A stretch of DNA of 64,000 nt, from assembly GCF_009834545.1 (NCBI RefSeq), contig NZ_CP019427.1:2920001-2984000 (forward strand). Reading direction: 5' to 3'. The notes under the pieces were generated by a model that did not search any database, was not told the DNA's origin, and worked only from the letters and a program-made list of their open reading frames with translations. Shown here one piece after another: positions 10,884-30,352 of this stretch (the stretch's first letter is position 1; each line of letters opens with the position of its first letter). The translations under genes and the position numbers were made by a program. The DNA is from Pseudomonas sp. S04. Lineage in GTDB: Bacteria; Pseudomonadota; Gammaproteobacteria; Pseudomonadales; Pseudomonadaceae.

Positions 10884-10965
10884 AGCGGTTCAGTCCTTAT
10901 CGTTATGAACCTATTACATGCCAGACGTTGTGCCTTGGGAATGCGACGATAGACAGGAAAACCAG

Positions 10966-10978
10966 TACCAAAGTAGTA
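10966..10978. promoter_or_regulatory. Putative PQQ-regulon operator (TACCAAAGTAGTA)
   Basis: This near-palindromic 13-mer is almost identical to the site at 14783-14795. It lies 83 bp upstream of the CXXCW-protein gene. See the other entries of the same name; the pattern suggests a NarL/FixJ-family binding site for AgmR or PedR2. Confidence 0.5.
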
Positions 10979-11006
10979 GTTTTGCGCCTTTGCTGGCAAA
11001 TACCGC

Positions 11007-11798
11007 CTAACCCGCCTTGCGCAACGCTGCATGCTGCGGGTTGAACGTCAGCACCGCCAGCAGGCCGAACAGCAGCGTCAGCACGGCGCACACCGCCAAT
11101 GCCAGGGGGTTGAACCGCTCATACAGGGCAAACCGCACCAGTTCCACCGCATGGCTGAACGGATTGACCGCACACAGCCAGTACAGCCATTCGCTGGAGT
11201 CGCGCATTTTCCACAGCGGATACAGCGCCGACGACAGGAAAAACAGCGGGAAGATCACGAAATTCATCACCCCGGCGAAGTTCTCCAACTGGCGGATCCC
11301 ATTGGACAGCAGCAACCCCAGGGCGCTGAGCATCAAGGCCACCAGCAACAGCGCCGGCAGGGCGAGCAGCAGGCCCGCCACCGGTGGGCGCACCCCATAC
11401 AGCCAGGCAATCGCCAGGAAGGCATACACCTGCAACAGCGAAACCAGTGCGGTCGCCAGCAACTTGCTGCACAGCAGGAAGGTCCGGGGCAGGGGGCTGG
11501 TGAGCAGTACGCGCATGCTGCCCATTTCCCGGTCGTAGACCATCGACAGCGAACCCTGCATGCCGTTGAACAGCAGGATCATGCAGGCAAGACCGGGGAT
11601 GATGTAGACCTCGTAGGGGATGTAGGTGTCGTAGGGCTCGATGATTGCGATGCCCAGCGCCGCCCGAAAGCCGGCGGCAAACACCAGCAGCCACAACAGC
11701 GGGCGTACCAGGGCGCTGAGAAAGCGCGTGCGCTGCAGCACGAACCGCAGCCATTCGCGCAGCACGATCCCGCGCAAGCAGTGCCAGTAGGCGTTCAT
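11007..11798 (-). CDS. PQQ-associated ABC-2 type transporter permease
   Basis: The product, starting MNAYWHCLRGIVLREWLRF, is 263 residues with about six hydrophobic segments (for example LLWLLVFAAGFRAALGIAII, AFLAIAWLYG, LLLALPALLLVALMLSALGL) typical of ABC-2 export permeases. A much longer in-frame extension to 11987 is rejected because it overlaps the ATPase gene and is not membrane-like. It overlaps the upstream ATPase gene by four bases (ATGA), showing tight operon coupling. The transporter family is found with PQQ-dependent catabolism, but its cargo is unknown. Confidence 0.87.
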   Translation of the reverse strand: MNAYWHCLRGIVLREWLRFVLQRTRFLSALVRPLLWLLVFAAGFRAALGIAIIEPYDTYIPYEVYIIPGLACMILLFNGMQGSLSMVYDREMGSMRVLLTSPLPRTFLLCSKLLATALVSLLQVYAFLAIAWLYGVRPPVAGLLLALPALLLVALMLSALGLLLSNGIRQLENFAGVMNFVIFPLFFLSSALYPLWKMRDSSEWLYWLCAVNPFSHAVELVRFALYERFNPLALAVCAVLTLLFGLLAVLTFNPQHAALRKAG

Positions 11799-12526
11799 CG
11801 GGTGGCTCCCATGGTGGTCAGGCGGTTGAAGGCCGTGCCGAGGTCGCCGCCATGTTCCAGGCTCAAGTCCGCGGCCTGCCCGCTGGCCACCAGGCGACCC
11901 TGATGGAGAATCAGCAGGTCGTCGCTGGGCGACACCTCGTCCAGCAGGTGGGTGGTCCACAGCACGCTCAACTGTTGCTCGCGGCACAGGCTACGCAGGT
12001 GCTGGTTGAGGGCCAGGCGGCTGGCCGGGTCGAGGCCGACGCTGGCTTCGTCGAGCAGCAACAGGCGCGGTTCGTGTAGCAGGGCGCGGGCGATCTCCAC
12101 CCGGCGACGGTGGCCACCGTTGAGTTCGCGCACCCGTTCACTGCGGCGCTCGGTCAGGCCCTGGCGCGCCAGTTCGGCGTCCACCCGCTGGCTGCTCTGG
12201 CGCCGGGACAGGCCATGCAGGGCAGCGTGGTAACGCAGGTTCTGTTCGACGCTGAGGTCCAAGTCCAGGGTGCTTTGCTGAAATACCACGCCCAATTGCT
12301 TGAGCGCCGGACGCGGGCGGTCGCGCAATGAATGGCCGCCGACCCGGATCTCGCCGCGCTGCAGGTCATAGAGTCGGGTGAGCAGGGCAACCAAGGTCGA
12401 CTTGCCTGCGCCGTTGGGCCCCAGCAACGCGGCAAAACGCCCTGGTGCCAGACTGAAGCCGACCTGGTTCAGCGCCTGGCGGGCACCGTAGGCGAAGCTC
12501 AGGTCGCTGACGTCCAGGGCGTTCAT
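11795..12526 (-). CDS. PQQ-associated ABC transporter ATP-binding protein
   Basis: This is a 243-residue ATPase with Walker A GPNGAGKST (residues ~35-44), a variant signature NGGHRRRVEIARALL in place of LSGGQ, Walker B LLLLDEASVGLDP and the H-loop TTHLLDEV. It is most similar in layout to the ABC-2/CcmA-like export ATPases. It overlaps both neighbours by four bases (beta-propeller gene before, permease after), so the three are co-translated. Together they form the ABC unit conserved beside quinoprotein alcohol dehydrogenases; the substrate is not known. Confidence 0.9.
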   Translation of the reverse strand: MNALDVSDLSFAYGARQALNQVGFSLAPGRFAALLGPNGAGKSTLVALLTRLYDLQRGEIRVGGHSLRDRPRPALKQLGVVFQQSTLDLDLSVEQNLRYHAALHGLSRRQSSQRVDAELARQGLTERRSERVRELNGGHRRRVEIARALLHEPRLLLLDEASVGLDPASRLALNQHLRSLCREQQLSVLWTTHLLDEVSPSDDLLILHQGRLVASGQAADLSLEHGGDLGTAFNRLTTMGATR

Positions 12527-13482
12527 GGCGTGACCACCACGCCCCAGGGGTAACGCCCGACCTTCACCGACTTGATGACCTTGAGGCTGTCGACATCGAT
12601 CACCGAGACATCGCCGCTGACGCCGTTGGTGGCCAGCAATTGTTTTTGATCCGGGGTGAACGCCATCTGCCAGACGCGGCGTCCCACCAGCAGGTAGTCG
12701 AGGATTGCAAAGGTCCTGGCGTCGATCACCGCCACATGGTTGGCCGGGCCGAGGGCGACAAACCCGTACTTGCCGTCGGCGCTGAGCTTGACCCCCACCG
12801 GCTGGACCTTGTCCGGGTGCACGCCCTTGATCTGGAAGTTCAGGGTCTTGAGCACCTTGCGGCTGGCCACCTCGAGAATGGTCACGGTGCCGCCGATTTC
12901 CGCCGAGGCCCAGAGCTGCTGGCCATCCGGGGAGAACTCGACAAATCGTGGGCGCTGGTCCACCAGGGTGCTGTCGGCCAGGGTCTGGGTACTGGTGTCG
13001 ATCCAGTGCAGCATGTTGGTGGTTTCACTGGTGTTCACCGCCCACTTGCCATCGGGGCTGACGGCCATGCCTTCGGGTTCGACGCCGACGCTGATCTGCC
13101 CGAGTACCTTGGCGGTCTCGGTGTCGATCACCGTCACCAGCGCATCGTCTTCGTTGGAGACGTACAGCCAGCGGTTGTTGGGGTGCAGGGCGAACTGCTC
13201 GGGGTCCTTGCCGGAAGGCAGCTCCTTGATGATCTTGCGGGTCGCCACGTCCATCACCTGGACCCGGTCCGAATCACTGGCGCAGATGTACAGCAGCTTA
13301 TTGTCGTGGGACAGCAACAGGCCACGAGGGCGCTGGCCGACGGGCAGGGTGTCGGTGACTTGCAGGGTCTGCAGGTCGATCAGGCTCAGGCTGTTGTCCT
13401 TCTCGTTGGAGACCCAGGCGGTGCTGGCCGCGGCGTGCCCGGCGGCGAGCAACAGGGCGCATGAGAGCAGGGTGCGGCGCAT
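12523..13482 (-). CDS. PQQ-dependent catabolism-associated beta-propeller protein (YVTN family)
   Basis: The 319-residue protein starts with a signal peptide (MRRTLLSCALLLAAGHAAAS). It continues with repeated YVTN-type blades such as VSNEKDNSLSLIDLQTLQVT, LYICASDSDRVQVMDVATRK and LYVSNEDDALVTVIDTETAK. It is a periplasmic seven-bladed-propeller candidate and may act as a binding or scaffold subunit of the adjacent ABC system. The gene overlaps the ATPase gene by four bases, and the binding-protein gene ends 36 bp upstream, so all four belong to one transcription unit running leftward from 14703. No catalytic residues can be named. Confidence 0.88.
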   Translation of the reverse strand: MRRTLLSCALLLAAGHAAASTAWVSNEKDNSLSLIDLQTLQVTDTLPVGQRPRGLLLSHDNKLLYICASDSDRVQVMDVATRKIIKELPSGKDPEQFALHPNNRWLYVSNEDDALVTVIDTETAKVLGQISVGVEPEGMAVSPDGKWAVNTSETTNMLHWIDTSTQTLADSTLVDQRPRFVEFSPDGQQLWASAEIGGTVTILEVASRKVLKTLNFQIKGVHPDKVQPVGVKLSADGKYGFVALGPANHVAVIDARTFAILDYLLVGRRVWQMAFTPDQKQLLATNGVSGDVSVIDVDSLKVIKSVKVGRYPWGVVVTP

Positions 13483-13518
13483 GGCGGATACCTTCTGGTT
13501 GTTGTGGGGTGGGCAATT

Positions 13519-14703
13519 TCAGGGAAAGCGGCAACTGACCTCGGGCTTGTCGTAACCCAGGCTGTCCATTTCGTTGAAGGGGTGCAGGAAACCTTCCTGG
13601 GGTGAAGTGCTGACCAGCGCCCGGGGCTGCACGATGGGGATGGGTTGGCGTAACTGGCCATTCCAGGGGCGATAGCTGAGCTTGCGGCCCTTGAAGCCGT
13701 CCAGTGGCAGTTGGTCGCTGAGTTGCAGCTCGCGGATCGCCATGGGGTCGGCGTTGCGCAGTTTGCTCACCGCACTGGCGATGCTGCGCACGGCCATCCA
13801 GGCGGCGAAATCGCGGTCGTTCATCCAGCGCCCGGCCAGGGCCTCGAAGCGTTTTTGCAGCTGCGCGGCGCCGTAGGTTTCCACGGTCTTGTGCCAGCCC
13901 ACGGGAGTCAGGCCCTGGGTGCCGGCGACCGGGCGCGGGTACCAGGTCTGGTAGGGCACGTACTCGCCGAAATCGCCGCGTTCATCGGCCACCAGCACCA
14001 CGTCATACTCGGCGGTCTGGGTGAACAACGGCATGTCGGTCTGGGCGCTGCGGCGTTGGTCGTTGTCGAAACTCCAGGCCTTTTCTGCCACCAGTTGCAG
14101 GCCAAAGCGCTTGGCGGCGCGCCGCAGGGCGGCGGCATAAGCCTGGTCGTCTGCGGTCGGGCCGACGATCAGCAAGGCCCGCTGCCATTTGCGTTGCACC
14201 AGCAATTGCCCCAGGGCATCGGCGAGCATCGCCCGGCTCGGCAGACTGTGCAGCACATTGGGCAGGCAGTCGGTGCTGCGCAAACTGTCATCCGGACTCC
14301 CGGCATTGAACAGCAGGCTGTCGGGCAATGCCGCGCTCAGCTGGCGCAGGCTGGACGCCGGGGCGTTGACCACAAACAGCCGCAGCCCTTGCTCATGCTG
14401 GGCCTTGGCGGCGTCCAGCAGGGCTTGCGGGGTGACGACGCTGGCGCTGAGCAAGTGGTAGCTCTGGTTGAGAAAGCGCCCGGTGCTGTTGCTGTCGGTG
14501 ATCGCCAGTTCGGCGCCGCGCAGGCCGGCGTCAGTCGGTTCGCCAATCACGTTGGACAACAGCGGACCCGGGTCGGGGCGATAGCCCAGGTAGCCGATCT
14601 GCACCGGTAACGGTGGGTCCGCCGCCTGGCTTTGGCTCGCCACGCCGGCGGCGCAGGCAATCGCCAGCAGGTAGATCAGGGCGTAGGGGGCAAGCTGGCG
14701 CAT
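13519..14703 (-). CDS. PQQ-associated ABC transporter substrate-binding protein (branched-chain amino-acid binding fold)
   Basis: The 394-residue protein starts MRQLAPYALIYLLAIACAAG with a Sec signal peptide. The body has the type I periplasmic binding fold of the LivJ family (VQIGYLGYRPDPG, RALLIVGPTADDQAYAAALR, DVVLVADERGDFGEYVPYQT). It heads the leftward operon: binding protein, beta-propeller, ATPase, permease. Two AGTACCA half-sites and a full TACC-type site lie 65 to 92 bp upstream. The ligand could be an alcohol metabolite or a cofactor such as PQQ, but that is inference. Combining a type I binding protein with an ABC-2 (export-like) permease is unusual. Confidence 0.87.
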   Translation of the reverse strand: MRQLAPYALIYLLAIACAAGVASQSQAADPPLPVQIGYLGYRPDPGPLLSNVIGEPTDAGLRGAELAITDSNSTGRFLNQSYHLLSASVVTPQALLDAAKAQHEQGLRLFVVNAPASSLRQLSAALPDSLLFNAGSPDDSLRSTDCLPNVLHSLPSRAMLADALGQLLVQRKWQRALLIVGPTADDQAYAAALRRAAKRFGLQLVAEKAWSFDNDQRRSAQTDMPLFTQTAEYDVVLVADERGDFGEYVPYQTWYPRPVAGTQGLTPVGWHKTVETYGAAQLQKRFEALAGRWMNDRDFAAWMAVRSIASAVSKLRNADPMAIRELQLSDQLPLDGFKGRKLSYRPWNGQLRQPIPIVQPRALVSTSPQEGFLHPFNEMDSLGYDKPEVSCRFP

Positions 14704-14782
14704 AGGGCACTCCGTTCCAGGTAGCGCCAGCATAGGAAGCCCACGAGCAGGGGGAAATATGCAGAAAGTACCAGTCAGCCAG

Positions 14783-14795
14783 TACCAAGGTAGTA
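14783..14795. promoter_or_regulatory. Putative PQQ-regulon operator (TACCAAGGTAGTA)
   Basis: This is the best copy of the recurrent site, with a palindromic core CTACC/GGTAG type. It lies 80 bp upstream of the leftward ABC operon and 66 bp upstream of the rightward small ORF at 14861, so it could serve both. A second half-site, AGTACCA, starts 13 bp before it at 14768. Confidence 0.55.
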
Positions 14796-14860
14796 ACTGC
14801 GCCAAGGCGGCGTGGTTTTAGCATGGGCAATAACGGCTATTTCAGTGGAGGCGATTGATC

Positions 14861-14983
14861 ATGCGAATTCTCAAGGCGCTGCTCCTGCCGTTGTTGCTGA
14901 TCCTGAGCATGATCGGCGTCGACCGCCTGCACGGTCCGCAACCGGTCGCAGCGCGGGTCATGCCCGCTCTACCGGGGCGCTAG
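14861..14983 (+). CDS. Small hydrophobic 40-residue ORF preceding pedS2
   Basis: The frame starts ATG at 14861, preceded by a strong GGAGG (14848-14852) with suitable spacing. It encodes MRILKALLLPLLLILSMIGV followed by a short hydrophilic tail with several Pro and Arg residues (ending ALPGR). The stop is two bases before the GTG start of the sensor kinase. The N-terminal half looks like one membrane segment or a signal peptide. It could be a translational-coupling leader, a small membrane partner of the kinase, or a secreted peptide. Nothing in the sequence decides between these. Confidence 0.6.
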   Translation: MRILKALLLPLLLILSMIGVDRLHGPQPVAARVMPALPGR

Positions 14984-14985
14984 GC

Positions 14986-16248
14986 GTGTCGGCCCTGTGG
15001 CGGATCAACCTGTGGGTCTGCGGCTTTTTTGCCCTGGTGACCCTGGGGTGCATGGGCTTGCTGCTGCATCAGGCGCTGGCAGATGTCGAGCGGGAACTGC
15101 AGTCGGCAGAAGCGGTGGTCGAGTATTTGAGCGAAAGCGCCGCACGCGACCCGGTCAGCCTGCAGCCCCGGCTGACCGAAGGTCTGCGTCACGTGCGGGT
15201 ACGCTGGTTGCAGCCGGGGGAGGCGGCACAGGCTCCGGCGCACAAAGGCATGGATGCCTGGCTCGCCCGACTGCTGTTTGCCGAGCGCCTGCACAGCCCC
15301 CGTCTGCTTGATCTGCGTGACGGCCGGCGGGTACAAATTGCCCTGGACCCGCGGGACGAACTCGATGAAGTCTGGGACTCGGTGCAGCAACTGCTCGGCC
15401 TGTGCGCCCTGGCGTTGCTCGTCAGCCTGGTCAGTATTCGCTGGGCGGTACGCCGTGGCACGAGCCTGCTCGATGAGTTGTTGCGGGCCTTGCAGCAAGT
15501 GTGCGCTGGCCAGCTCAAGGTCCGTCTGCGCGGTACCGGCTTGGCGGAAGCGCGCCAACTGGCCCAGCAGTTCAACCGCATGACCGAGGCACTGGAACAG
15601 GCCCATGCCGACAATGCCCGGTTGACCCGCACCCTGTTGGCCGTGCAGGAGCAGGAACGCACCCATTTGGCCCAGACCCTGCACGACGATCTTGGCCAGT
15701 ACCTGGCGGGGATTCGCGCCCAGGCCTGTCTGCTGCGCCTGGTCGCGAACCAGCCCCAGACCATCGAGCGCACGGTGCGCGAGCTGGAGCACAACTGCGA
15801 ACACCTGCAGCAGGGCTTTCGCGCCCTGGTCCAGGATCTCTATCCGGTAGTCCTGCAGCACCTGCCGTTGAGCGCGGCCGTGGGCTTGCTGGTGCAGCAG
15901 TGGCAGACCCGGCAGGGCATCGATTGCCGGTTGCGGGTCAGCGCCGATCTGCCGCTGCTGTCCGCACCGCACCAGACCCATCTGTATCGGCTGCTGCAAG
16001 AAGCCCTGACCAACATTGCCCGTCATGCTGGCGCCAGTCAGGTGCGGGTGCGCCTGCATCATTGCGGCGGACGATTGCGGGTGCTGGTGCGCGATAACGG
16101 TCGTGGTGCGCAGCAACCACAGCAACCGGGTGTCGGCCTGTATTCAATGTTCGAACGGGCCCGTTGCCTGGGCGGCGAACTGCGCATCATCAGTCAGCCC
16201 GGCGCCGGTTGGGCGCTGGCCTTGAGCATGCCTTTGGAGGTGTCATGA
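14986..16248 (+). CDS. pedS2: Sensor histidine kinase of the PQQ alcohol-dehydrogenase locus (PedS2/EraS type)
   Basis: The GTG at 14986 (VSALWRINLWVCGFFALVTL) is the likely start, since the frame upstream overlaps the small ORF. The 420-residue protein has TM1 (~8-30), a periplasmic sensor region (~30-130), TM2 (LLGLCALALLVSLVSI), a HAMP-like linker, a HisKA_3 dimerisation box with LHDDLGQYLAGIRAQ (phospho-acceptor His) and an HATPase with EALTNIARHAG and DNGRGA. By synteny it corresponds to PedS2 of P. putida, reported to control the calcium/lanthanide switch between PedE and PedH, and to EraS/ExaD of P. aeruginosa. It overlaps the response regulator gene by four bases. Confidence 0.85.
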   Translation: MSALWRINLWVCGFFALVTLGCMGLLLHQALADVERELQSAEAVVEYLSESAARDPVSLQPRLTEGLRHVRVRWLQPGEAAQAPAHKGMDAWLARLLFAERLHSPRLLDLRDGRRVQIALDPRDELDEVWDSVQQLLGLCALALLVSLVSIRWAVRRGTSLLDELLRALQQVCAGQLKVRLRGTGLAEARQLAQQFNRMTEALEQAHADNARLTRTLLAVQEQERTHLAQTLHDDLGQYLAGIRAQACLLRLVANQPQTIERTVRELEHNCEHLQQGFRALVQDLYPVVLQHLPLSAAVGLLVQQWQTRQGIDCRLRVSADLPLLSAPHQTHLYRLLQEALTNIARHAGASQVRVRLHHCGGRLRVLVRDNGRGAQQPQQPGVGLYSMFERARCLGGELRIISQPGAGWALALSMPLEVS

Positions 16249-16883
16249 ACATTTTGCTGGTCGATGATCACGCGGTAGTCCGCCAAGGCTACGCCAGCCT
16301 GTTGCGGGCGTTGTTGCCGGCGATCGAAGTGCGCGAAGCGGCCACCGGCGAGGAGGCGTTGAGCCGGGTCCAGGAGGCGCTGCCGAACCTGGTGATCATG
16401 GACTTTGGCCTGCCGGGCATCAGTGGCCTGGAAACCACCCGCCGCCTGCGCCAGCGCTTGCCGCAACTGCGGGTGCTGTTTTTCAGCATGCACGATGAAC
16501 TGCCGCTGGTGCGCCAGGCCCTCGATGCCGGGGCGTCGGGCTACCTGACCAAAAGCTCGGCGCCTGAGGTGTTGATCGAGGCGGTGCGCCGGATTCTCGC
16601 CGGTCACGCCTATATCGAGCAGCCCCTGGCTACCCAGTTGGCGTGCCACCCGCAACAGGACGCCAGCGATCCGCGCCTGCAAAGCATGACCCAGCGTGAA
16701 CTGGAGATCTTCGTGATGCTCGCCAAAGGCACCCCGGCACGGCTGATTGCCGAGCAGTTGAGCATCAGCAGCAAGACTGTTTCCAACCACCTGACCTTGC
16801 TCAAGAGCAAGCTGCAGGTCAGCTCTCATGCCGAACTGGTGCACCTGGGGATTGATATGGGGGTGGTGCGGGTGGCGAGCTGA
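16245..16883 (+). CDS. pedR2: LuxR-type response regulator (PedR2/EraR/ExaE type)
   Basis: The start is MNILLVDDHAVVRQGYASLL, overlapping the kinase stop (ATGA). The 212-residue protein has a receiver domain with the DDH acidic pair, phospho-acceptor in VIMDFGLPGISG and the conserved YLTKSSAPE lysine. The C-terminal LuxR helix-turn-helix reads TQRELEIFVMLAKGTPARLI then KTVSNHLTLLKSKL. In related pseudomonads this regulator activates the calcium-type dehydrogenase gene and, with lanthanides, gives way to pedH expression. Its candidate sites are the TACC 13-mers in this locus. Confidence 0.87.
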   Translation: MNILLVDDHAVVRQGYASLLRALLPAIEVREAATGEEALSRVQEALPNLVIMDFGLPGISGLETTRRLRQRLPQLRVLFFSMHDELPLVRQALDAGASGYLTKSSAPEVLIEAVRRILAGHAYIEQPLATQLACHPQQDASDPRLQSMTQRELEIFVMLAKGTPARLIAEQLSISSKTVSNHLTLLKSKLQVSSHAELVHLGIDMGVVRVAS

Positions 16884-16889
16884 CGGAGC

Positions 16890-16958
16890 ATTCAACATCG
16901 ATGTCGCCTGACACACCGCCATCGAGAGCAAGCCGCAAGCGGGCGCTCGCTCCTTGTG
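16890..16958. repeat. REPIN-like element after pedR2
   Basis: The stretch contains CATCGATGTCGCCTGACACA, related to the central segment of the REPINs at 8778 and 53845, followed by CATCGAGAGCAAGCCGCAAG and GGGCGCTCGCTCC, a diverged REP. It fills the gap between the convergent pedR2 and pentapeptide-protein genes. Confidence 0.6.
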
Positions 16959-17040
16959 TCGGTGTATGCAAAATCTGCCGCTATCGAAAAATCCCACTGA
17001 GGGCACGAGCCAGGTGTTCGTAGAGCCTGCGTAAAGCCAG

Positions 17041-17688
17041 TCATTTATCCCAGGTCGTTGGGCAACCGACACACCCCTCCATGTTCGCATCCTGAAAGTT
17101 GCCGTAATGCTGGCGCGAGCCGCTGAGGTTGGCCTGGGCCAGGTTGCTTTCGCCGAACTTGGCTTCCTGCAGGTTGGCGTCGCTGAGGTTGGCGCCTTGC
17201 AGGTCGGCCTTGCTCAGCCAGGTCATTTCCAGGTCGGCGGCGCGCAGGTTGGCGTTGTGCAGCTTGGCGCCGGACAGGCGGGCGAATTGCAGGTAGGCGC
17301 CGCCCAGGTTGGCGTCCTGGAATTGCGCGCCTTGGGCAAACAGGCCCCAGCCCTGGACCGCCAGCAGTGTCGCGCCGGTGAAGTCGGCCAGGCGCAGGTT
17401 GCTTTGTTGCAGGCTGGCGCGAGTCAGGTTAGCGCCTTGCAGTTGGGCCTTTTCCAGGTTGGCCAGGTCCAGGCGGGCGTGGCGCAGATCGGCATCGCGC
17501 AGGTCGGCGCCGCTGAGGTTCATGTTGCGCAAGTCCTGGTTGCTCAGGTTGGCGCCACGCAGATTGGCGCCGGGGCATTGGCTGTGGTCGGCGATGGTGC
17601 AGCCGTTGATGATCAGCGGGGTGTCGTCACCGTCGTCGGCGTGGGCGGGGGTGAGGCTCAGGAGAAGCAGCAGAGGTAGATAGTTCAT
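17041..17688 (-). CDS. Periplasmic pentapeptide-repeat protein
   Basis: The start MNYLPLLLLLSLTPAHADDG gives a clear signal peptide; an upstream in-frame ATG at 17736 is rejected. After a cysteine-bearing N-terminus (NGCTIADHSQCPG), nearly the entire 215-residue protein is A(D/N)LxX pentapeptide repeats (LRGANL, LSGADL, LQGANL), forming a right-handed quadrilateral helix. A C-terminal CVGCP cysteine pair ends the protein. It lies just downstream of pedE on the same strand, separated by a hairpin, and is conserved beside quinoprotein ethanol dehydrogenases. A scaffold or dehydrogenase-partner role is plausible but unproven. Confidence 0.87.
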   Translation of the reverse strand: MNYLPLLLLLSLTPAHADDGDDTPLIINGCTIADHSQCPGANLRGANLSNQDLRNMNLSGADLRDADLRHARLDLANLEKAQLQGANLTRASLQQSNLRLADFTGATLLAVQGWGLFAQGAQFQDANLGGAYLQFARLSGAKLHNANLRAADLEMTWLSKADLQGANLSDANLQEAKFGESNLAQANLSGSRQHYGNFQDANMEGCVGCPTTWDK

Positions 17689-17717
17689 CGCAAGGTTCTC
17701 GGAGGTGCCGATTTCCC

Positions 17718-17747
17718 TGTAGGAGCGAGCGGGCACTCGCTCCTACA
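17718..17747. repeat. Perfect 12-bp inverted repeat (REP-like hairpin) between pedE and the pentapeptide gene
   Basis: The arms TGTAGGAGCGAG and CTCGCTCCTACA flank a 6-base loop. The hairpin sits in the 81-bp gap downstream of pedE. It could act as an attenuator or 3'-end stabiliser that uncouples pedE from the downstream gene. Confidence 0.8.
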
Positions 17748-17769
17748 AAGTATGTGTCAGTAGCGAGGA

Positions 17770-19656
17770 TCAGCGTTTGGCGGTCGGGTTATCCCAGCTC
17801 GGGATCTTGAACACCCAGAACGAGCCACCCTGGGCCACGGGTTTGGTCAGCTCCGCCATGTCGCCGCCCCACAACGGCACCGCGCCGCCGTAACCGACGG
17901 TCACGCCGATGTACTGCTCGCCATCCTGTTCCCAGGTGATCGGCGGCGAGACGATGCCGCTGCCGGTCTGGAACTTCCACAGCTCCTTGCCGGTTTTCGC
18001 ATCGAAGGCCTTGAAGAACCCGTCGCCGGTGCCGGTGAACACCAGGTTGCCCTTGGTCGCCAGCACGCCGGCCCACAGCGGCAAGGCCTCCTTGTGCTCC
18101 CAGACCACTTTGCCGGTGGTCGGGTTCATGGCGCGCAGGGTGCCGACGTGGTCGTCGTACATGCGCTTGATGCGGAAACCCATGCCCAGGTAGGCCGAGC
18201 CCTTCTTGTAGTTGACCTCTTCGGTCCAGTATTCCTCTTTCCACTGGTTGCCCGGGATGTAGAACAGCCCGGTGTCCTGGCTGTAGGCCATGGGGTTCCA
18301 GTTCTTGCCGCCGAGGAACGGCGGCGAGACTTCCACCGGCTTGCCCTTGGTTTCCCCTGGCAGGGGCTTGGCCGGGCGTTGGCCCTCGTTCTCCACCGGA
18401 CGTCCGGTCTTGAGGTCGATGTGGCTGGCCCAGGTGATGTTGTCGACGAAGGGGAAGGCGTTCTGCAGTTTGCCGTTGTTGCGGTCGACCACGTAGAAGA
18501 AGCCGTTGCGGTCGGCGTGGCCGGTGGCCTTGACCAGTTTGCCGTCCTTGTCCTTGTAGTCGAACAGCACCAGCTCGTTGTTGCCGGAGAAGTCCCAGGC
18601 ATCGTTCGGGGTGTGCTGGTAGAACCACTTGACCTCGCCGGTGCTCGGGTCGACCCCGACCTGGCCTGAGGTGTAGAGGCTGTCGTAATCGTGCGGGTTG
18701 CCGTCCTTGGAGGTACGCGCCCAGGTGTTCCAGGGCCCGGGGTTGCCAGCGCCGACGATGATGGTGTTGCTTTCCGGGTCGAAACTGGCGCTCTGCCAAG
18801 GAGCGCCGCCACCATGGCTCCAGGCCTCGACCTTGCCGGTCTCGGTAGTCGGGTCATTGGGCCAGGACGGTGCCTTGACGTCACCGGTGGGGGTGCTGTC
18901 CTTGCCGTTCAGGCGGCCCATGTGGCCTTCGACGAAAGGCCGCATCCAGACTTCTTCGCCGGTGTCCGGGTCGCGGGCGAACAGTTGGCCGACCACGCCG
19001 AATTCATCGCCAGAGCTGCCGTGGATCAGCAGCACCTTGCCGCTGGTCTTGTCCTTGATCAGCACCGGGGCGCCGGTCATCGTGTAGCCGGCGGCGTGGT
19101 CGCCAAACTTCTTGTTCCATACGACTTTGCCGGTGTTCTTGTCGAGGGCGATCAGCCGCGCGTCGAGGGTGCCGAAGTAGATCTTGTCGCCGAAAATCGC
19201 CGCGCCACGATTGACCACGTCGCAGCACGGACGAATGTTGTCCGGCAGGCGATGGTTGTAGGTCCACAGGCGCTTGCCGGTCTTGGCGTCGAGGGCAAAG
19301 ACCCGGGAGTAGGAACCGGTGACGTACACCACGCCGTCGCTGACGATGGCCTGGGATTCCTGGCCGCGCTGTTTTTCATCGCCGAAGGAGTAGGACCAGG
19401 CCGGGGTGAGCTTGAACACGTTCTGGTCGTTGACCTGGGCCAGCGGGCTCCAGCGCTGGGCGTTGGTGCCCATGCCGTATTGCAGCACGTCCTTGGTGGT
19501 CAGGTGGTCGTTGGCAATGTCTTCCCAGCTCACCTTGGTGCTGGTCGGGGCGGTGGCAGCGTACCCGGTGGTGCCCAGGGACAGGCCGCCCACCAGCAAG
19601 AAGGCCTGCACGGCGAGGGTCAGGGGGGAAAGGGCGGGTAGCGATCTTATTGTCAT
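17770..19656 (-). CDS. pedE: Calcium-type PQQ-dependent ethanol dehydrogenase (PedE/ExaA)
   Basis: This 628-residue quinoprotein oxidises ethanol and other alcohols to aldehydes in the periplasm, passing electrons to cytochrome c. A signal peptide (~1-33, LVGGLSLGTTGYAATA) precedes an eight-bladed propeller with tryptophan-docking motifs. The adjacent cysteine pair RPCCDVVNRG forms the ring disulfide over PQQ. The catalytic aspartate is Asp355 in AWDFSGNNE, and the residue two positions on is Ser357, where lanthanide enzymes have Asp, so this is the Ca-dependent form. It is nearly collinear with P. aeruginosa ExaA. It is divergent from pedF, with a shared TACC site at 19793-19805. Confidence 0.96.
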   Translation of the reverse strand: MTIRSLPALSPLTLAVQAFLLVGGLSLGTTGYAATAPTSTKVSWEDIANDHLTTKDVLQYGMGTNAQRWSPLAQVNDQNVFKLTPAWSYSFGDEKQRGQESQAIVSDGVVYVTGSYSRVFALDAKTGKRLWTYNHRLPDNIRPCCDVVNRGAAIFGDKIYFGTLDARLIALDKNTGKVVWNKKFGDHAAGYTMTGAPVLIKDKTSGKVLLIHGSSGDEFGVVGQLFARDPDTGEEVWMRPFVEGHMGRLNGKDSTPTGDVKAPSWPNDPTTETGKVEAWSHGGGAPWQSASFDPESNTIIVGAGNPGPWNTWARTSKDGNPHDYDSLYTSGQVGVDPSTGEVKWFYQHTPNDAWDFSGNNELVLFDYKDKDGKLVKATGHADRNGFFYVVDRNNGKLQNAFPFVDNITWASHIDLKTGRPVENEGQRPAKPLPGETKGKPVEVSPPFLGGKNWNPMAYSQDTGLFYIPGNQWKEEYWTEEVNYKKGSAYLGMGFRIKRMYDDHVGTLRAMNPTTGKVVWEHKEALPLWAGVLATKGNLVFTGTGDGFFKAFDAKTGKELWKFQTGSGIVSPPITWEQDGEQYIGVTVGYGGAVPLWGGDMAELTKPVAQGGSFWVFKIPSWDNPTAKR

Positions 19657-19792
19657 GGTTGCAGTTCCCAGTGGAGGTTTTGGCCTGCACAGGGTGCTGC
19701 GCCGTGTCGGTGGCGCCTACGGAAAAAATCCCGCTGTGGCCGGGAAGACTTCCCGGTCGGGCTATGAATTGGGTGTGCGTCACAAGCCCTAC

Positions 19793-19805
19793 TACCAAGG
19801 GAGTA
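19793..19805. promoter_or_regulatory. Putative PQQ-regulon operator (TACCAAGGGAGTA)
   Basis: The site lies in the 253-bp divergent region, 137 bp upstream of pedE and 117 bp upstream of pedF, with extended symmetry CTACtACCAAGGgAGTAG. It is one of several near-identical sites in the locus. Confidence 0.55.
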
Positions 19806-19909
19806 GAGCGCGGCCACCAAAGCAGCATGGGGCTTGTGCCAAGGCCTTTCTAAGATGGCTGCCATAGCCTCTGCCAAGAGGTTTTGCGTGCAATCCTGAG
19901 GGCATAACA

Positions 19910-20371: not shown

Positions 20372-20375
20372 GCCC

Positions 20376-21251: not shown

Positions 21252-21259
21252 GAGCTGCG

Positions 21260-22021: not shown

Positions 22022-22037
22022 GCCCAAGGAGTACCTG

Positions 22038-22970: not shown

Positions 22971-23018
22971 TCCCATCGCATCGTTGCGCCGTAGTAGCGG
23001 CTATGGAATCGGACCCCC

Positions 23019-23031
23019 TACCAAGGAACTA
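23019..23031 (+). promoter_or_regulatory. Putative PQQ-regulon operator upstream of pedH (TACCAAGGAACTA)
   Basis: The site lies 120 bp before the pedH start, preceded by CCCCC as in the pqqA copy. It shares TACCAAGG with the pedE/pedF and ABC-operon copies. Confidence 0.5.
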
Positions 23032-23138
23032 ACAATCTCCACACTGCGGGCAATTGTTGCCAGGGTCGTGGCGCTGAAGAATCTGCTCCAGACCGGGAAA
23101 ATTTCCCGGGTATAACAAAAACCGCAGAGGTAGCCGCC

Positions 23139-24914
23139 ATGACCCAACCCGCACGTCGCCAACCCTTCGTCCTGTGTGCACTGCTCAGCGCCATGCTGCT
23201 GTCCGGCACGGCCCTGGCCGCCGTCAGCGACCAGGACATTCTCCAGGACCCGAAAAACCCGGAGCAGATCGTCACCAACGGTCTGGGCGTCCAGGGTCAG
23301 CGCTACAGCCCACTGGACACCCTCAACGTGAATAACGTCAAGGACCTGCGCCCCGTCTGGGCATTCTCCTTCGGTGGCGAAAAACAGCGTGGCCAGCAAG
23401 CGCAGCCGATGATCAAGGACGGCGTGATGTACATGACCGGCTCCTACTCGCGGGTGTTTGCGGTGGACGCGCGCACCGGCAAGAAGCTCTGGCAATACGA
23501 TGCGCGCCTGCCCGATGACATCCGTCCCTGCTGCGACGTGATCAACCGCGGCGTGGCGCTGTACGGCGACCTGGTGTTCTTCGGCACCCTCGACGCCAAG
23601 CTGGTGGCCTTGAACAAGGACACCGGCAAAGTGGTCTGGAGCAAAAAAGTCGCCGACCACAAGGAAGGCTACTCCATCAGCGCTGCGCCCCTGGTGATCA
23701 ACGGCAAGCTGATCACCGGGGTCGCCGGTGGCGAGTTCGGCGTGGTGGGCAAGATCGAAGCCTACGACCCGAAAAACGGCGAACTGCTGTGGAGCCGGCC
23801 AACGGTCGAAGGTCACATGGGCTACGTCTACAAGGACGGCAAGGCGGTCGAGAACGGCATTTCCGGTGGCGAAGCGGGCAAGACCTGGCCGGGCGATCTG
23901 TGGAAGACTGGTGGCGCCGCACCGTGGCTTGGCGGCTACTACGACCCGGAAACCAACCTGCTGCTGTTCGGCACCGGCAACCCGGCTCCGTGGAACTCGC
24001 ACCTGCGTCCTGGCGACAACCTCTACTCCTCGTCGCGTCTGGCCCTCAACCCGGACGACGGCACCATCAAGTGGCACTTCCAGAGCACGCCCCACGATGG
24101 TTGGGACTATGACGGGGTGAACGAACTGGTGTCGTTCAACTACAACGAAGGCGGCAAAGAGATCAAGGCTGCTGCCACCGCCGACCGCAACGGCTTCTTC
24201 TACGTGCTGGACCGCACCAACGGCAAGTTCATCCGTGGCTTCCCGTTTGTCGACAAGATCACCTGGGCCACCGGCCTGGATAAAAATGGCCGGCCAATCT
24301 ACAACGAAGCCAGCCGACCGGGTGCTCCGGGCAGCGAGGCCAAGGGCAGCTCGGTGTTTGTCGCGCCGGCGTTCCTGGGGGCCAAGAACTGGATGCCGAT
24401 GGCCTACAACAAGGACACCGGGCTGTTCTATGTGCCCTCCAACGAGTGGGGCATGGACATCTGGAACGAAGGCATCGCCTACAAAAAAGGCGCGGCATTC
24501 CTCGGTGCCGGCTTCACCATCAAGCCGCTGAACGAAGACTACATCGGCGTGCTGCGGGCAATTGATCCGAAAACCGGCAAGGAAGTCTGGCGCCACAAGA
24601 ACTTCGCGCCACTGTGGGGTGGGGTGCTGACCACCAAGGGCAACCTGGTGTTCACCGGTACGCCGGAAGGTTTCCTGCAGGCGTTCAACGCCAAGACCGG
24701 GGAAAAAGTCTGGGAGTTCCAGACCGGCTCCGGGGTCCTGGGCTCACCCGTGACCTGGGAAATGGACGGCGAACAATACGTCTCGGTGCTCTCGGGCTGG
24801 GGCGGCGCCGTACCGCTGTGGGGCGGCGAAGTGGCCAAGCGGGTCAAGGACTTCAACCAGGGCGGCATGCTCTGGACCTTCAAGTTGCCGAAGGAGCTGG
24901 TGGCCAAGCACTGA
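23139..24914 (+). CDS. pedH: Lanthanide-type PQQ-dependent alcohol dehydrogenase (PedH)
   Basis: The 591-residue quinoprotein has a signal peptide ([18 protein letters not shown]) and the same propeller architecture as PedE, with the ring disulfide Cys131-Cys132 in [11 protein letters not shown]. The catalytic Asp323 lies in GWDYDGVNE, followed two residues later by Asp325. That additional Asp is the hallmark of lanthanide-coordinating XoxF/PedH enzymes; PedE has Ser there. It should oxidise a similar range of alcohols and some aldehydes when rare earths are available. The gene has its own promoter region with a TACC site, and ends before a REPIN. Confidence 0.95.
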
Positions 24915-24937
24915 TCCCGACTCCACCGCATAACCCC

Positions 24938-25050
24938 TGTAGGAGCGAGCGCCCGCTTGCGGCCTGCTCGCGATGGTCGTCAACGATAACGCTGGAAACC
25001 TGATACCCCGTGGCGTTCTCGGGTTCATCGCGAGCAAGCTCGCTCCTACA
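24938..25050. repeat. REPIN of the TGTAGGAGCGAG type between pedH and pedI
   Basis: CTGTAGGAGCGAG near 24937 pairs with CGCGAGCAAGCTCGCTCCTA ending about 25050, with a central segment of about 60 bases containing CGTCAACGATAACGCTGG. It probably caps the pedH transcript. Confidence 0.85.
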
Positions 25051-25081
25051 GTGATCTGTGCAAAATCTACGACCAAATAAC

Positions 25082-25128
25082 GAGAGCCCCCCCTGCCAAC
25101 GGCGCATACGTCTGGCACGCGGGGCTCT
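25082..25128. promoter_or_regulatory. Large hairpin overlapping a TACC-type site upstream of pedI
   Basis: GAGAGCCCC (25082-25090) pairs with GGGGCTCTC (25120-25128). Inside is a second, smaller pair TGCCA/TGGCA and a weak copy of the regulon site, TGCCAACGGCGCA (25094-25106), 93 bp before the pedI start. Either the DNA site, the RNA structure or both may regulate pedI. Confidence 0.5.
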
Positions 25129-25186
25129 CTACTATCGGTGCATCGCCTGTTTGCCCGACAGGCATTGACCAAGACAGAGGCCCAGC

Positions 25187-26707
<1,521 letters not shown>

Positions 26708-26729
26708 CTTCGCACTAACGACAACCACC

Positions 26730-26830
26730 CTGTAGGAGCGAGCTTGCTCGCGATGGACGTCAACGATGACGCGTTCTGTCTGTATGTACGCGCTGTCTTC
26801 ACGTCCTTCGCGAGCAAGCTCGCTCCTACA
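26730..26830. repeat. REPIN of the TGTAGGAGCGAG type between pedI and pqqA
   Basis: TGTAGGAGCGAGCTTGCTCG at 26730 is mirrored by CGAGCAAGCTCGCTCCTACA ending at 26830, with about 60 bases between. It has the same subtype as the copy at 24938. Confidence 0.88.
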
Positions 26831-26862
26831 ACGTTTGTGCGTGCATGACGATCGCACCCCCC

Positions 26863-26875
26863 TACCAAATCACCC
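26863..26875 (+). promoter_or_regulatory. Putative PQQ-regulon operator upstream of pqqA (TACCAAATCACCC)
   Basis: A weaker copy, matching TACCAA and preceded by CCCCC like the pedH copy, lies 106 bp before the pqqA start. It supports joint control of cofactor and enzyme genes. Confidence 0.4.
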
Positions 26876-26968
26876 CGCCAACTCCTTCGAAAGTAGCATT
26901 CGGTCACCTCAAGCCCCGTGCATTAATGCCTGTACCGGAATCGCCCGGCACAAGAAGAGGAATGACCC

Positions 26969-27040
26969 ATGTGGACTAAACCCGCGTTTACCGATCTGCG
27001 CATTGGCTTCGAAGTGACGATGTATTTCGCCAACCGTTGA
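26969..27040 (+). CDS. pqqA: PQQ precursor peptide PqqA
   Basis: The 23-residue peptide MWTKPAFTDLRIGFEVTMYF ends ANR. Glu15 and Tyr19 are the strictly conserved residues (E-x3-Y) that PqqE crosslinks to build PQQ. An AAGAGGAA ribosome binding site lies just upstream. It is the first gene of pqqABCDE and is probably made in excess of the enzymes, because a stem-loop follows directly. Confidence 0.97.
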   Translation: MWTKPAFTDLRIGFEVTMYFANR

Positions 27041-27047
27041 TTGTCCA

Positions 27048-27073
27048 CCCGGCCAGCCATAGCGTTGGCCGGG
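27048..27073 (+). terminator. Stem-loop between pqqA and pqqB (attenuator candidate)
   Basis: CCCGGCCA (27048-27055) pairs perfectly with TGGCCGGG (27066-27073) over a 10-base loop, just after the pqqA stop. There is no T tract, so it more likely slows transcription or protects the pqqA message than fully terminates. It fits the need for much more PqqA than PqqB-E. Confidence 0.6.
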
Positions 27074-27095
27074 CCTGCCTTCTGGAGCAATGCCC

Positions 27096-28010
27096 ATGCA
27101 CATCCGTGTCCTCGGTTCCGCCGCCGGTGGCGGTTTTCCGCAGTGGAACTGCAATTGCCGCCAGTGCGCTGGCGTGCGCGCGGGCAGCCTGCGTGCGCAA
27201 CGGCGTACGCAGTCCTCGATTGCCCTGAGTGACAACGCTGTGGACTGGGTGCTGTGCAACGCTTCGCCAGACATTCGCGCGCAGCTGGAAAGTTTCCCCG
27301 CGCTGCAACCGGCGCGCCGGCTGCGGGATACGGCGATTAACGGAATCATCCTGATGGACAGCCAGATCGACCACTGCACCGGCCTGTTGAGCCTGCGCGA
27401 AGGCTGTCCGCACACCGTGTGGTGCACCGAACGGGTTCATCAGGACCTGAGCAGCGGGTTTCCCTTGTTTGACATGCTGGCCCACTGGAACGGCGGCCTG
27501 CAGTGGTCACCCATCGGCCTGGACCGCGCGCCGTTCAGCATCGCTGCTTGCGCGCACCTTGAGTTCCGGGCCATCCCGTTGGTCAGCAACGCACCACCGT
27601 ATTCGCCGAATCGTGGCAACCCGCAGCCGGGTGACACCATCGGTCTGTTCATCGAGGACCGGCGCAGCGGTGCGTCGTTGTTCTATGCCCCGGGCCTGGG
27701 CCAGGTCGACGACGAATTGCTCGGCTGGATGCAGCGCGCCGATTGCCTGTTGCTCGATGGCACGCTGTGGCGCGACGACGAGATGCGCCTGTGCGAAGTC
27801 GGCCAGAGCCTGGGCCGCGAGATGGGGCACCTGGCGCAAAGCGGCCCGGGGGGCATGCTTGAGGTGCTGGAGGGCTTTCCACGCCAGCGCAAGGTGCTGA
27901 TTCACATCAACAACACCAACCCGATCCTCGACCCGGACTCGGCCGAGCGGGCGGAGCTTGAGCGGCGCGGAATCGAAGTGGCCTACGACGGCATGCACAT
28001 CGACCTGTAG
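27096..28010 (+). CDS. pqqB: PQQ biosynthesis protein PqqB (metallo-beta-lactamase fold)
   Basis: The start [20 protein letters not shown] is chosen because GGAG lies 8 bases upstream; an ATG two codons earlier is too close. The 304-residue protein has the family length and the conserved N-terminal [32 protein letters not shown] (metal site region) and INNTNPILD near the C-terminus. PqqB acts as an iron-dependent hydroxylase on the PqqE/PqqF product in PQQ synthesis. A REP lies between it and pqqC. Confidence 0.96.
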
Positions 28011-28041
28011 GGCCTTTCGCCAGCAGGCTGACTCGGACCCT

Positions 28042-28066
28042 TGTGGGAGCGGGCTTGCCCGCGATG
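28042..28066. repeat. Single REP between pqqB and pqqC
   Basis: The half element TGTGGGAGCGGGCTTGCCCG followed by CGATG lies inside the pqq operon, in the 91-bp gap between pqqB and pqqC. It is a lone REP without its inverted partner. Confidence 0.8.
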
Positions 28067-28101
28067 CCCCCAGACCTCACCGAACCGCCAGGAGAAGCAC
28101 A

Positions 28102-28854
28102 ATGATTGACCAGCCAATGACCCCCAGGGAATTCGAAGCCGCCCTACGTGCCAAGGGTGCCTATTACCACATCCATCACCCGTTCCACCAAACCATGTAC
28201 GCCGGGCGTGCCACTCGCCAGCAGATCCAGGGCTGGGTCGCCAATCGGTTCTACTACCAGTTGAACATCCCGCTGAAGGACGCAGCGATCCTGGCCAATT
28301 GTCCAGACCGCGAGGTGCGGCGGCAGTGGCTGCAACGCTTGCTCGATCACGACGGCGCACCGGGCAGCGAAGGCGGGATCGAAGCCTGGTTGCGCCTCGG
28401 CGAAGCCGTCGGGCTGACCCGCGAACAAGTGCTGTCCCAGGAGTTGGTGCTGCCGGGGGTGCGGTTTGCCGTGGATGCCTACGTCAATTTCGCCCGGCGC
28501 GCCTGCTGGCAGGAGGCAGCGAGCAGTTCGCTGACCGAGCTGTTCGCCCCGCAGATCCACCAGTCGCGCCTGGACGCCTGGCCCCAGCATTACCCCTGGA
28601 TCGACCCGGCCGGCTACCAGTATTTCCGCACGCGCCTGGGGCAGGCCCGTCGCGACGTCGAGCATGGGCTGCAGATTACCTTGGCGCATTACGTCACCGC
28701 CGCCGGCCAGCAACGCATGCTCGACATCCTGCAATTCAAGCTCGATGTGCTGTGGAGCATGCTCGATGCCATGAGCCTGGCCTACGAACTGGAGCGCCCG
28801 CCGTACCACACGGTGACCAGCGCCAATGTCTGGCACCGGGGGATCGCCCTGTGA
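28102..28854 (+). CDS. pqqC: Pyrroloquinoline-quinone synthase PqqC
   Basis: The 250-residue, all-helical haem-oxygenase-like enzyme performs the last ring closure and eight-electron oxidation that gives PQQ. The start [20 protein letters not shown] has a GGAG ribosome binding site; a long upstream in-frame extension is REP sequence and is rejected. Active-site stretches [15 protein letters not shown] and [18 protein letters not shown] are present. Its stop overlaps the pqqD GTG start by four bases (GTGA). Confidence 0.97.
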
Positions 28855-29123
28855 ATCTGATCAAACACGAACAGGCACCCGTGCTGCGCCGTGGTTTTCG
28901 CCTGCAATGGGAACCGCGCCAGGACTGTCACGTGCTGCTGTACCCCGAGGGCATGATCAAGCTCAATACCAGCGCCGGGCAGATCCTCAGCCTGGTGGAC
29001 GGCCAGCGCAGTGTGGCGGCGATCATTACTCAATTGAGCGCCAGTTTCCCTGGGGTGCCGGGGATCGACGAGGATGTCCTGGCGTTCCTGGAGGTGGCCC
29101 ATGCGCAATTCTGGATTGAGTGA
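28851..29123 (+). CDS. pqqD: PqqD, PqqA-binding chaperone
   Basis: The 90-residue protein starts GTG (read as Met) at 28851 with [20 protein letters not shown]. It contains the RRGFRLQWE and [16 protein letters not shown] motifs of PqqD, which presents the PqqA peptide to PqqE (the RiPP recognition element fold). It overlaps pqqC by four bases and pqqE by 23 bases, pointing to coupled translation and 1:1 production of PqqD and PqqE. Confidence 0.95.
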
Positions 29124-30243
29124 AGCGCCACCTGGTCCACCGCTGTGGTTGCTGGCGGAGCTGACCTATCGGTGCCCGCTGCAATGCCCCTATTGCTCCA
29201 ACCCGCTGGATTTTTCCCGGCACGGCGAGGAGCTGAGTACCGCCGAGTGGATTCGAGTGTTCCGCGAGGCCCGCGACATGGGCGCCGCGCAACTGGGCTT
29301 TTCCGGTGGTGAGCCGCTGGTGCGCCAGGACCTCGCCGAGCTCATCAAGGCCGCCCGGGACATGGGCTACTACACCAACCTGATCACCTCGGGCATTGGC
29401 CTGACCGAACAGAAAGTGCGGGATTTCAAAGTGGCCGGGCTGGACCATATCCAGATCAGCTTCCAGGCGGCCGACGAAGCGGTGAACAACATGCTCGCCG
29501 GCTCGCGCAAGGCTTTCGCGCAAAAACTGGCGATGGCCCGGGCAGTCAAGGCCCAGGGTTACCCGATGGTGCTGAATTTTGTCACGCACCGGCACAACAT
29601 CGACCGCATCGAGCAGATCATCGAGCTGTGCCTGGAGCTGGAGGCCGACTTTGTCGAGCTGGCCACCTGTCAGTTCTACGGCTGGGCCGAACTCAACCGG
29701 GTGGGCCTGCTGCCGACCCGCGACCAGTTGCAGCGCGCCGAGGCGATCACCCAGGAGTACCGCAAGCGGCTTGAGGCGCAAGGCCATCCGTGCAAACTGA
29801 TTTTCGTTACCCCGGACTACTACGAGGAGCGTCCCAAGACCTGCATGAACGGCTGGGCCAACCTGTTTCTCGACATCACCCCCGATGGCACCGCGCTGCC
29901 GTGTCACAGCGCCCGGCAGTTGCCCGTGGCGTTCCCCAATGTGCGCGAGCACAGCATCGAGCACATCTGGAATGACTCGTTCGGCTTCAACCGCTTTCGC
30001 GGTGATGCCTGGATGAAGGAGCCGTGCCGCTCCTGCGATGAAAAACACAAGGACCTGGGCGGCTGTCGTTGCCAGGCATTCATGCTCACCGGCGACGCCG
30101 CCAATGCTGATCCGGTGTGCAGCAAGTCGGCGCACCACGGGGTGATCCTCAAGGCCCGGGAAGAAGCCGAGGCACCCGGGCCGGGCATGGAGGCGCTGAC
30201 GCTGCGCAATGAAAAGGCTTCGCGGTTGATTTATCGCGGATAG
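29101..30243 (+). CDS. pqqE: Radical SAM enzyme PqqE
   Basis: The start is [20 protein letters not shown] within the end of pqqD. The 380-residue enzyme forms the C-C bond between Glu15 and Tyr19 of PqqA. Cys25, Cys29 and Cys32 in [14 protein letters not shown] bind the radical SAM 4Fe-4S cluster, and C-terminal SPASM-like cysteines ([30 protein letters not shown]) bind auxiliary clusters. It is the last pqq gene here. No pqqF protease gene follows, so PqqA cleavage must use a protease encoded elsewhere. Confidence 0.97.
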
Positions 30244-30270
30244 ATAGTCAGATCTGGTTCGCTCTGGGGG

Positions 30271-30283
30271 TACCCAATGGTCT
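30271..30283 (+). promoter_or_regulatory. Possible PQQ-regulon operator upstream of ercA (TACCCAATGGTCT)
   Basis: This is the weakest member of the set, 82 bp before the ercA start. It matches TACC-CAA and a GGT core and lies in the only sizeable gap between pqqE and ercA. Confidence 0.3.
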
Positions 30284-30352
30284 GATTGCATTCACCACCG
30301 GATCGGTTAGTGTGGCTGTTACCTTTCAAAACAATAAAAAACAGGCTTTCCA

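Follow-up and report, generated by a model that had tools for sequence, protein, structure and literature searches.

According to published work, the phosphorylated form of the response regulator PedR2 (PedR2~P) activates pedE and represses pedH, and it was proposed that lanthanide binding to PedS2 ends both effects, with PedR2 losing its phosphate; the activator of pedH was left unknown in that work (PMC6115532). The pedS2R2 promoter of KT2440 depends on PedR1 alone, and a direct action on pedE, pedF and pedI has been argued for this regulator (AgmR in what follows, also known as ErbR) (PMC13390443). An operator has been described for a related regulator, CrbR/ErdR, whose ACTU motif is found, for example, at acs as TACTACCATCGTCGAAT, from -52 to -36 and adjoining an RpoD promoter (PMC5715377). 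In the available text of PMC6115532, PMC13390443 and PMC12997753, several points are open or disputed: how a single regulator can turn on the calcium enzyme while turning off the rare-earth one, which factor activates pedH, and whether the effect of AgmR on the enzyme genes is direct. The subject of this analysis is the cluster of ped and pyrroloquinoline quinone (PQQ) genes in G000:C1:2920001-2984000 (the window, that is, the whole stretch of 64 kb analysed, out of a 6.1-Mb genome). This cluster contains two conserved palindromic elements, an 18-bp dyad recurring at several promoters (A box) and a second palindrome at the promoters of pedE and pedH (R2 box). Our preferred reading, to which we give a probability of roughly three in four, is that the A box is the operator of AgmR and the R2 box the operator through which PedR2 runs the lanthanide switch.

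The A box has the form CTACTACC-AA-GGTAGTAG and is present five times in the window: before the PP_2666-like gene and agmR (10962..10979, minus strand; CCAGTACCAAAGTAGTAG on the plus strand, 27.2 bits), between the divergent pedA1 and pedS2-pedR2 (14779..14796, unstranded; CCAGTACCAAGGTAGTAA, 26.6 bits), between the divergent pedE and pedF (19789..19806, unstranded; CTACTACCAAGGGAGTAG, a near-perfect dyad of 28.0 bits), before pedH (23015..23032, plus strand; CCCCTACCAAGGAACTAA, 23.4 bits) and before pedI (25067..25084, plus strand; CTACGACCAAATAACGAG, 20.9 bits). Against this range of 20.9-28.0 bits, the next-best match in the 64 kb reaches 9.7 bits and five shuffled windows peak at 14.3 bits. 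The matrix was built from 90 distinct orthologous sites. An earlier note on this DNA had described the repeat as a 13-bp near-palindrome. The repeat itself is borne out, and its four strong copies lie exactly where they had been placed (10966, 14783, 19793 and 23019), but the true unit is the 18-bp dyad. Counting mismatches to the bare 13-mer was dropped as a test, being too weak in the window (7 matches at up to 3 mismatches, 2.92 ± 1.61 expected, a number reached by 2 of 100 shuffles) and giving no excess at up to 2 mismatches in the whole genome (37 matches, 57 for the reversed-pattern control), so that only near-perfect sites carry meaning. With at most one mismatch, the 13-mer occurs at only 3 places in the 6.1-Mb genome, all 3 in the ped/PQQ locus.

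Three weaker copies had also been proposed, and they fared differently. For pedI, the real box lies at 25067-25084 and the copy given at 25094 falls away. Before pqqA, the copy at 26863 belongs to a conserved half-site (26859..26876, plus strand; CCCCTACCAAATCACCCC), whose TACCAA occurs in 62 of 84 upstream regions and in most cases lies at 105-107 bp from the start; its score as a full box is negative, and it was therefore rejected as an A box and kept as a half-site. The ercA copy (30271) was rejected as an A box and sits in a different conserved element, GGTC(T/A)GA (30262-30290), which 25 of 38 ercA upstream regions contain at about 73-74 bp from the gene and which resembles an ErdR-type box more closely than an A box. 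From box edge to start codon, the distance is 75-132 bp for PP_2666, pedA1, pedE, pedF, pedH and pedI, where the earlier note had given 80-137 bp, and 189 bp at pedS2 with the GTG start used.

Conservation was followed in two sets of loci. The near set consists of the window and 80 fetched Pseudomonas loci, close kin that also trained the matrix, and an A box was accepted there with at least 10 of 18 letters at no more than 4 bp from the expected distance. The distant set adds 77 loci with PedR2, taken partly from the same genus and partly from other genera of its family and from two more families within the order. A box was counted there if its score exceeded the 99% level obtained with shuffled upstream regions; one duplicate was removed before the main A-box counts. 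Since kinship inflates the counts of near loci, the distant set and the operon-internal controls are the safer evidence. In the near set the box precedes pedF in 81/81, pedH in 74/74, pedA1 in 63/70, PP_2666 in 55/66 and pedI in 66/77 cases. It is also kept upstream of the orthologous genes of the distant set: PP_2666 36/36, pedA1 47/47, pedF 45/45, pedE 44/48, pedH 18/18 and pedI 11/16, with lower counts for agmR (6/60), pqqA (4/10) and ercA (3/11). The weak raw counts of the 13-mer, the absence of an excess at two mismatches and the fact that neighbouring species share whole intergenic regions could suggest chance or neutral similarity without any regulatory role. This explanation has next to no chance and is already contradicted: the A box precedes the same genes in further families of the order, where PedR2 is only 52-61% identical, it is found in 0/323 upstream regions of the operon-internal genes pedC, pedB, pedA2, pedD, pedG, PP_2677 and PP_2678 of the distant set, and the R2 box described below has 62 copies against 0-2 for matched palindromes. 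As two-fold symmetric sites conserved at regulated promoters, the 18-bp A box and the R2 palindrome of 13-17 bp both have the features expected of an operator for a NarL/FixJ (LuxR-type) dimer and would be such operators, and the earlier idea that such a regulator of the locus reads the A box is well supported. Other orders are an unclear test of the A box, since some of the PedR2-like matches found in them (39-49%) may be something other than orthologs; 22 such loci with PedR2-like regulators gave one A-box match of at least 14 bits, and an AgmR-like match at 1e-30 was not found in 15 of the 22 genomes.

Two LuxR-type response regulators of the locus, AgmR and PedR2, had been named as possible readers of the repeat, singly or together, and the analysis supports the first and speaks against the second. 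As a LuxR-type regulator encoded in the locus, and with the A box present at both pedE and pedH, PedR2 could itself read the TACCAAGG dyad, alone or with AgmR. However, in the 50 genomes in which its presence was tested (of the 80 loci), a PedR2 ortholog (76-99%) is present in 22, the other 28 having no listed match above 39%, and these 28 keep the A box before pedF (28/28), pedH (28/28), pedA1 (26/28), PP_2666 (26/27) and pedI (22/28). The box is thus retained without PedR2, which is not its main reader and was rejected in this role. The pedS2R2 promoter has also been reported to be independent of PedR2 (PMC13390443), and the PedR2 recognition helix is unlike that of ErdR; the separate palindrome fits PedR2 better. 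It is highly improbable that PedR2 reads the A box.

AgmR, which was found in 18/18 PedR2-containing genomes asked, is the best candidate: AgmR and ErdR have almost the same recognition helix, and the ACTU box published for ErdR is related to the A box. The protein (agmR, 9603..10268, minus strand) has Response_reg and GerE domains, and its nearest NCBIfam model is that of ErdR (183.8 bits, below the cut-off). Its nearest paralog in the same genome (45%) is ErdR according to NCBIfam (443 bits, cut-off 390), with the recognition helix SEATIKAHVTAIFRKL, near-identical to that of AgmR; the 16 residues of the AgmR helix are the same in 43/43 near and 56/57 distant proteins read. A box that is independent of PedR2 and present alongside AgmR has the properties that a site of the AgmR regulon should have, and the A box would fit this description. 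The promoter of pedS2R2, which has been reported to depend on PedR1 only, contains an A box and no R2 box, and in P. fulva (L102) the pedA1/pedS2 region has the A box without the R2 box and both pedE and pedH have the two.

The near-identity of the two helices also favours another explanation, namely that the A boxes belong to ErdR (CrbR) as ACTU-type sites, so that acetate signals would act on the cluster directly by way of ErdR. On the A-box matrix, two of the seven published ACTU 17-mers reach 11.2 and 12.3 bits, and in P. aeruginosa both agmR and ercS have been placed downstream of ErdR (PMC9927353, PMC12997753). Yet the other five score from -10.7 to 6.6, as compared with 19.5-26.6 for the five full A boxes over the same columns, and the letters of the A box do not match the published ACTU sites. 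Among the 15 promoters of the P. aeruginosa ErdR mapping, ercS and agmR do not appear in the available text (PMC9927353), and deletion of erdR in P. putida was without effect on ethanol use (PMC12997753). We regard this explanation as unlikely; a sharing of some A boxes between ErdR and AgmR is possible.

The R2 box emerges when the pedE and pedH promoters are read side by side, as both hold CCGGGAAnnnTTCCCGG (19740-19756 and 23093-23109). Its core is the palindrome GGGAAnnnTTCCC, found in this locus only at these two promoters. At pedE the first box (19740..19756, unstranded; CCGGGAAGACTTCCCGG) has the exact core in 21/21 near loci with PedR2 and, in the distant set, 34 exact copies, 16 with one mismatch and 4 with more, of 54. 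A second, degenerate box, recognized from the column consensus (19720..19732, minus strand; GGGATTTTTTCCG on that strand), is located exactly 22 bp nearer to pedE and has no more than 2 mismatches in 59 of 71 promoters. The pedH promoter has a single box (23093..23109, unstranded; CCGGGAAAATTTCCCGG), whose core stops 31 bp short of the start codon; the core is exact in 21/21 near loci with PedR2 and in 18 of 21 distant ones, the other 3 having one mismatch, and the distance between the A-box and R2-box centres is 77.5 or 78.5 bp in 42/42 promoters having both. In the PedR2-containing near loci the exact core is absent before pedS2 (0/21), pedA1 (0/20), PP_2666 (0/20), pedI (0/23) and pqqA (0/23). 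A palindrome present at pedE and pedH and absent from promoters controlled by AgmR only is what would be expected of the PedR2 operator.

Loci with and without PedR2 were also compared. The region upstream of pedF has the exact core in 22/23 cases with PedR2 and in 3/28 without it (pedA1, 1/28 without), and for pedH the figures are 20/20 and 17/28 (Fisher p 0.0012, uncorrected for kinship). In the 77 distant loci there are 62 copies of GGGAAnnnTTCCC; nine other palindromes that share its arm letters have 0-2, and its arms with spacers of 1, 2, 4, 5 or 6 give 0-1 copies. Of the 62, 52 stand before pedE or pedH and 9 elsewhere in five loci (L192-L194, L196 and L197), the last one being at the edge of L182. 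The 22 loci of other orders add 8 exact copies in 7 loci, with 0-1 for matched palindromes, and one of these copies lies 61 bp before a pedE homolog. Because pedE and pedH are the promoters under PedR2 in the literature, PedR2 (ExaE/EraR; pedR2, 16245..16883, plus strand) is likely the protein that binds the R2 box. It has Response_reg and GerE domains, and its nearest NCBIfam family is of the UvrY/GacA type (158.3 bits, below the cut-off). The distances between the A-box and R2-box centres at pedE (48.5-49.5, 70.5-72.5, 82.5-84.5, 94.5-97.5, 106.5 and 119.5 bp) are suggestive of helical phasing, which is not claimed because they come from few lineages. Some compact clusters with pedR2 (L156, L157, L162, L163, L165 and L167) have no pedS2 homolog detected in the fetched stretch, and the five of them that contain pedE have an R2 box with one mismatch, GGGAAATTGTCCC.

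These elements can be joined in a mechanism in which the boxes, their conservation and spacing and their co-occurrence with the regulators were observed here, the mutant genetics is published, and the pairing of each protein with its box is inferred. AgmR would report alcohol at every A box, that is, at the agmR unit, at the pedA1-C transporter genes together with pedS2R2, at pedE/pedF, pedH and pedI, and weakly at pqqA. A conserved GCA is found 27-30 nt past the A-box centre at five promoters (distinct promoters counted): at offset 29 in 50/83 PP_2666 and 40/75 pedH promoters, at 28 in 67/104 of pedA1, at 30 in 43/61 of pedI, and at pedF at 27 in 99 of 112 and at 30 in 83. At pedS2 the offset is 36 (31/45), and towards pedE there is no such offset. 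This GCA may be part of the -10 region, which would place the A box near -40, much as ACTU in acs; AgmR would then activate from about -40 and would be a candidate for the activator of pedH. The arrangement of the R2 boxes, in tandem well upstream of pedE and single 31 bp before the pedH start codon, fits the published action of PedR2. When there is no lanthanide, PedR2~P on the tandem boxes would activate pedE, and on the single box close to the start codon it would block pedH. With lanthanide, PedR2 would be dephosphorylated; its activation of pedE and its block on pedH would cease, and the A box of pedH would then drive that promoter.

Several results weigh against the assignment of the two boxes to AgmR and PedR2. 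An A box was scored before pedS2 in just 16 of 51 distant upstream regions (counted before removal of the duplicate, as were pedR2, 12/80, and pqqB, 2/4); the pedS2 start varies among species, and pedR2 occurs without a detected pedS2 in some compact clusters. Two genomes of other orders, G1083 and G1317, have AgmR-like proteins (60% and 72%), yet their fetched loci contain no A box reaching 14 bits, and ErdR could bind A boxes as well. As for the R2 box, the exact pedH copy survives in those 17 of 28 genomes lacking PedR2, the others having one (9) or two (2) mismatches, and at pedE two or more mismatches occur in 4 of the 54 distant promoters. The genome of the window itself contains the core at 4 places, two of them being pedE and pedH, versus 3 for the reversed control, so the specificity of the R2 box rests on its place and conservation. 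The other two exact copies are at G000:C1:653501 and 979530.

The R2 box may have a use beyond these two promoters. In a related genus (g2), exact R2 pairs 22 bp apart occur at a third place beside pedR2, at about 9.0-9.3 kb in L192, L193, L194 and L197, and L196 has a single exact copy there, at 8.9 kb. The minus-strand frame adjoining the boxes in L192 and L193 encodes a TonB-dependent receptor (Pfam barrel and plug domains; the NCBIfam siderophore-receptor and PqqU models remain below their cut-offs), and in L193 the boxes begin 30 bp before this frame. The protein is a candidate receptor for lanthanide, PQQ or siderophore under PedR2. A broader proposal, which we put forward tentatively and consider possible rather than probable, is that GGGAAnnnTTCCC is a portable operator running the lanthanide switch in pseudomonads and their relatives, where two copies 22 bp (about two helical turns) apart upstream of pedE serve for activation and one copy near the pedH start codon serves for blocking, and that the TonB receptor preceded by the tandem operator could be the missing outer-membrane receptor for lanthanide uptake.

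The cluster begins with agmR and the PP_2666-like rhodanese gene, pedC, pedB, pedA2 and pedA1 (minus strand), continues with pedS2-pedR2 (plus) and pedD and pedE (minus), and ends with pedF, pedG, the PP_2677-like and PP_2678-like genes, pedH, pedI, pqqA, pqqB, pqqE and ercA (plus), in the nomenclature of PMC12997753. Among the fetched loci, the closest named one is that of Pseudomonas kielensis (99% at PedF); the named loci do not include KT2440. The commonest cluster type of the near loci (31/81, and 3 more also showing ercA) is without pedS2, pedR2, pedD and pedE. L145, L147 and L149 have in the same cluster one pedS2-like gene flanked by two pedR2-like genes, and Pseudomonas frederiksbergensis 36C6 has two separate pedF loci (L043 and L047) on one contig, about 0.4 Mb apart. 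Between the A box and the GTG start of pedS2 there is a 40-codon open frame (MRILKALLLPLL..., 14861-14983), and a similar frame is found in 5 of 21 near loci with PedR2, the window counted. Inverted TGTAGGAGCGAGC / GCTCGCTCCTACA elements, which look like repeats of the repetitive extragenic palindromic (REP) type, are located before pedI (24935-25060) and before pqqA (26730-26832).

Two separate operators with a fixed layout would turn the open questions about the switch into simple mutation tests. They would also provide a search tool for further targets, such as the candidate lanthanide receptor, and parts for alcohol- and lanthanide-responsive promoters.

Of the known systems, ACTU is like the A box in being an imperfect inverted repeat for a LuxR-type response regulator, and the TACTACCA half is common to both, as in the acs site. 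The right arms differ, GTC.AAT in ACTU and GTAGTA in the A box, five of the seven published ACTU sites remain below 7 bits on the A-box matrix, and ACTU is located at acetate genes whereas the A box is at genes for alcohol oxidation and PQQ. Azospirillum EraR, 45% identical to PedR2, acts with sigma54 (PMC6115532), whereas no sigma54 promoter is established at pedE here. The atlas of P. aeruginosa motifs obtained by systematic evolution of ligands by exponential enrichment (SELEX) names EraR once, among predicted motility regulators, and shows in its available text no motif letters for AgmR/ErbR or EraR (PMC8041468). A search of the literature, mostly without subscription papers (for example, the 2009 P. 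putida HK5 promoter paper), found no AgmR or PedR2 operator in the text available.

A study of EraR in Azospirillum brasilense is said to describe a 17-bp dyad upstream of exaA, a PQQ alcohol dehydrogenase gene, and there is reportedly a survey of P. aeruginosa response regulators by DNA affinity purification sequencing (DAP-seq). In vitro motifs for the P. aeruginosa orthologs of AgmR and PedR2 may be contained in this survey and in the SELEX atlas. As the Azospirillum study and the DAP-seq survey could hold matching sites, the claim to novelty is a modest one: operators of NarL/FixJ regulators are of a known kind, and what is gained here is the assignment of two of them, the A box to AgmR and the R2 box to PedR2.

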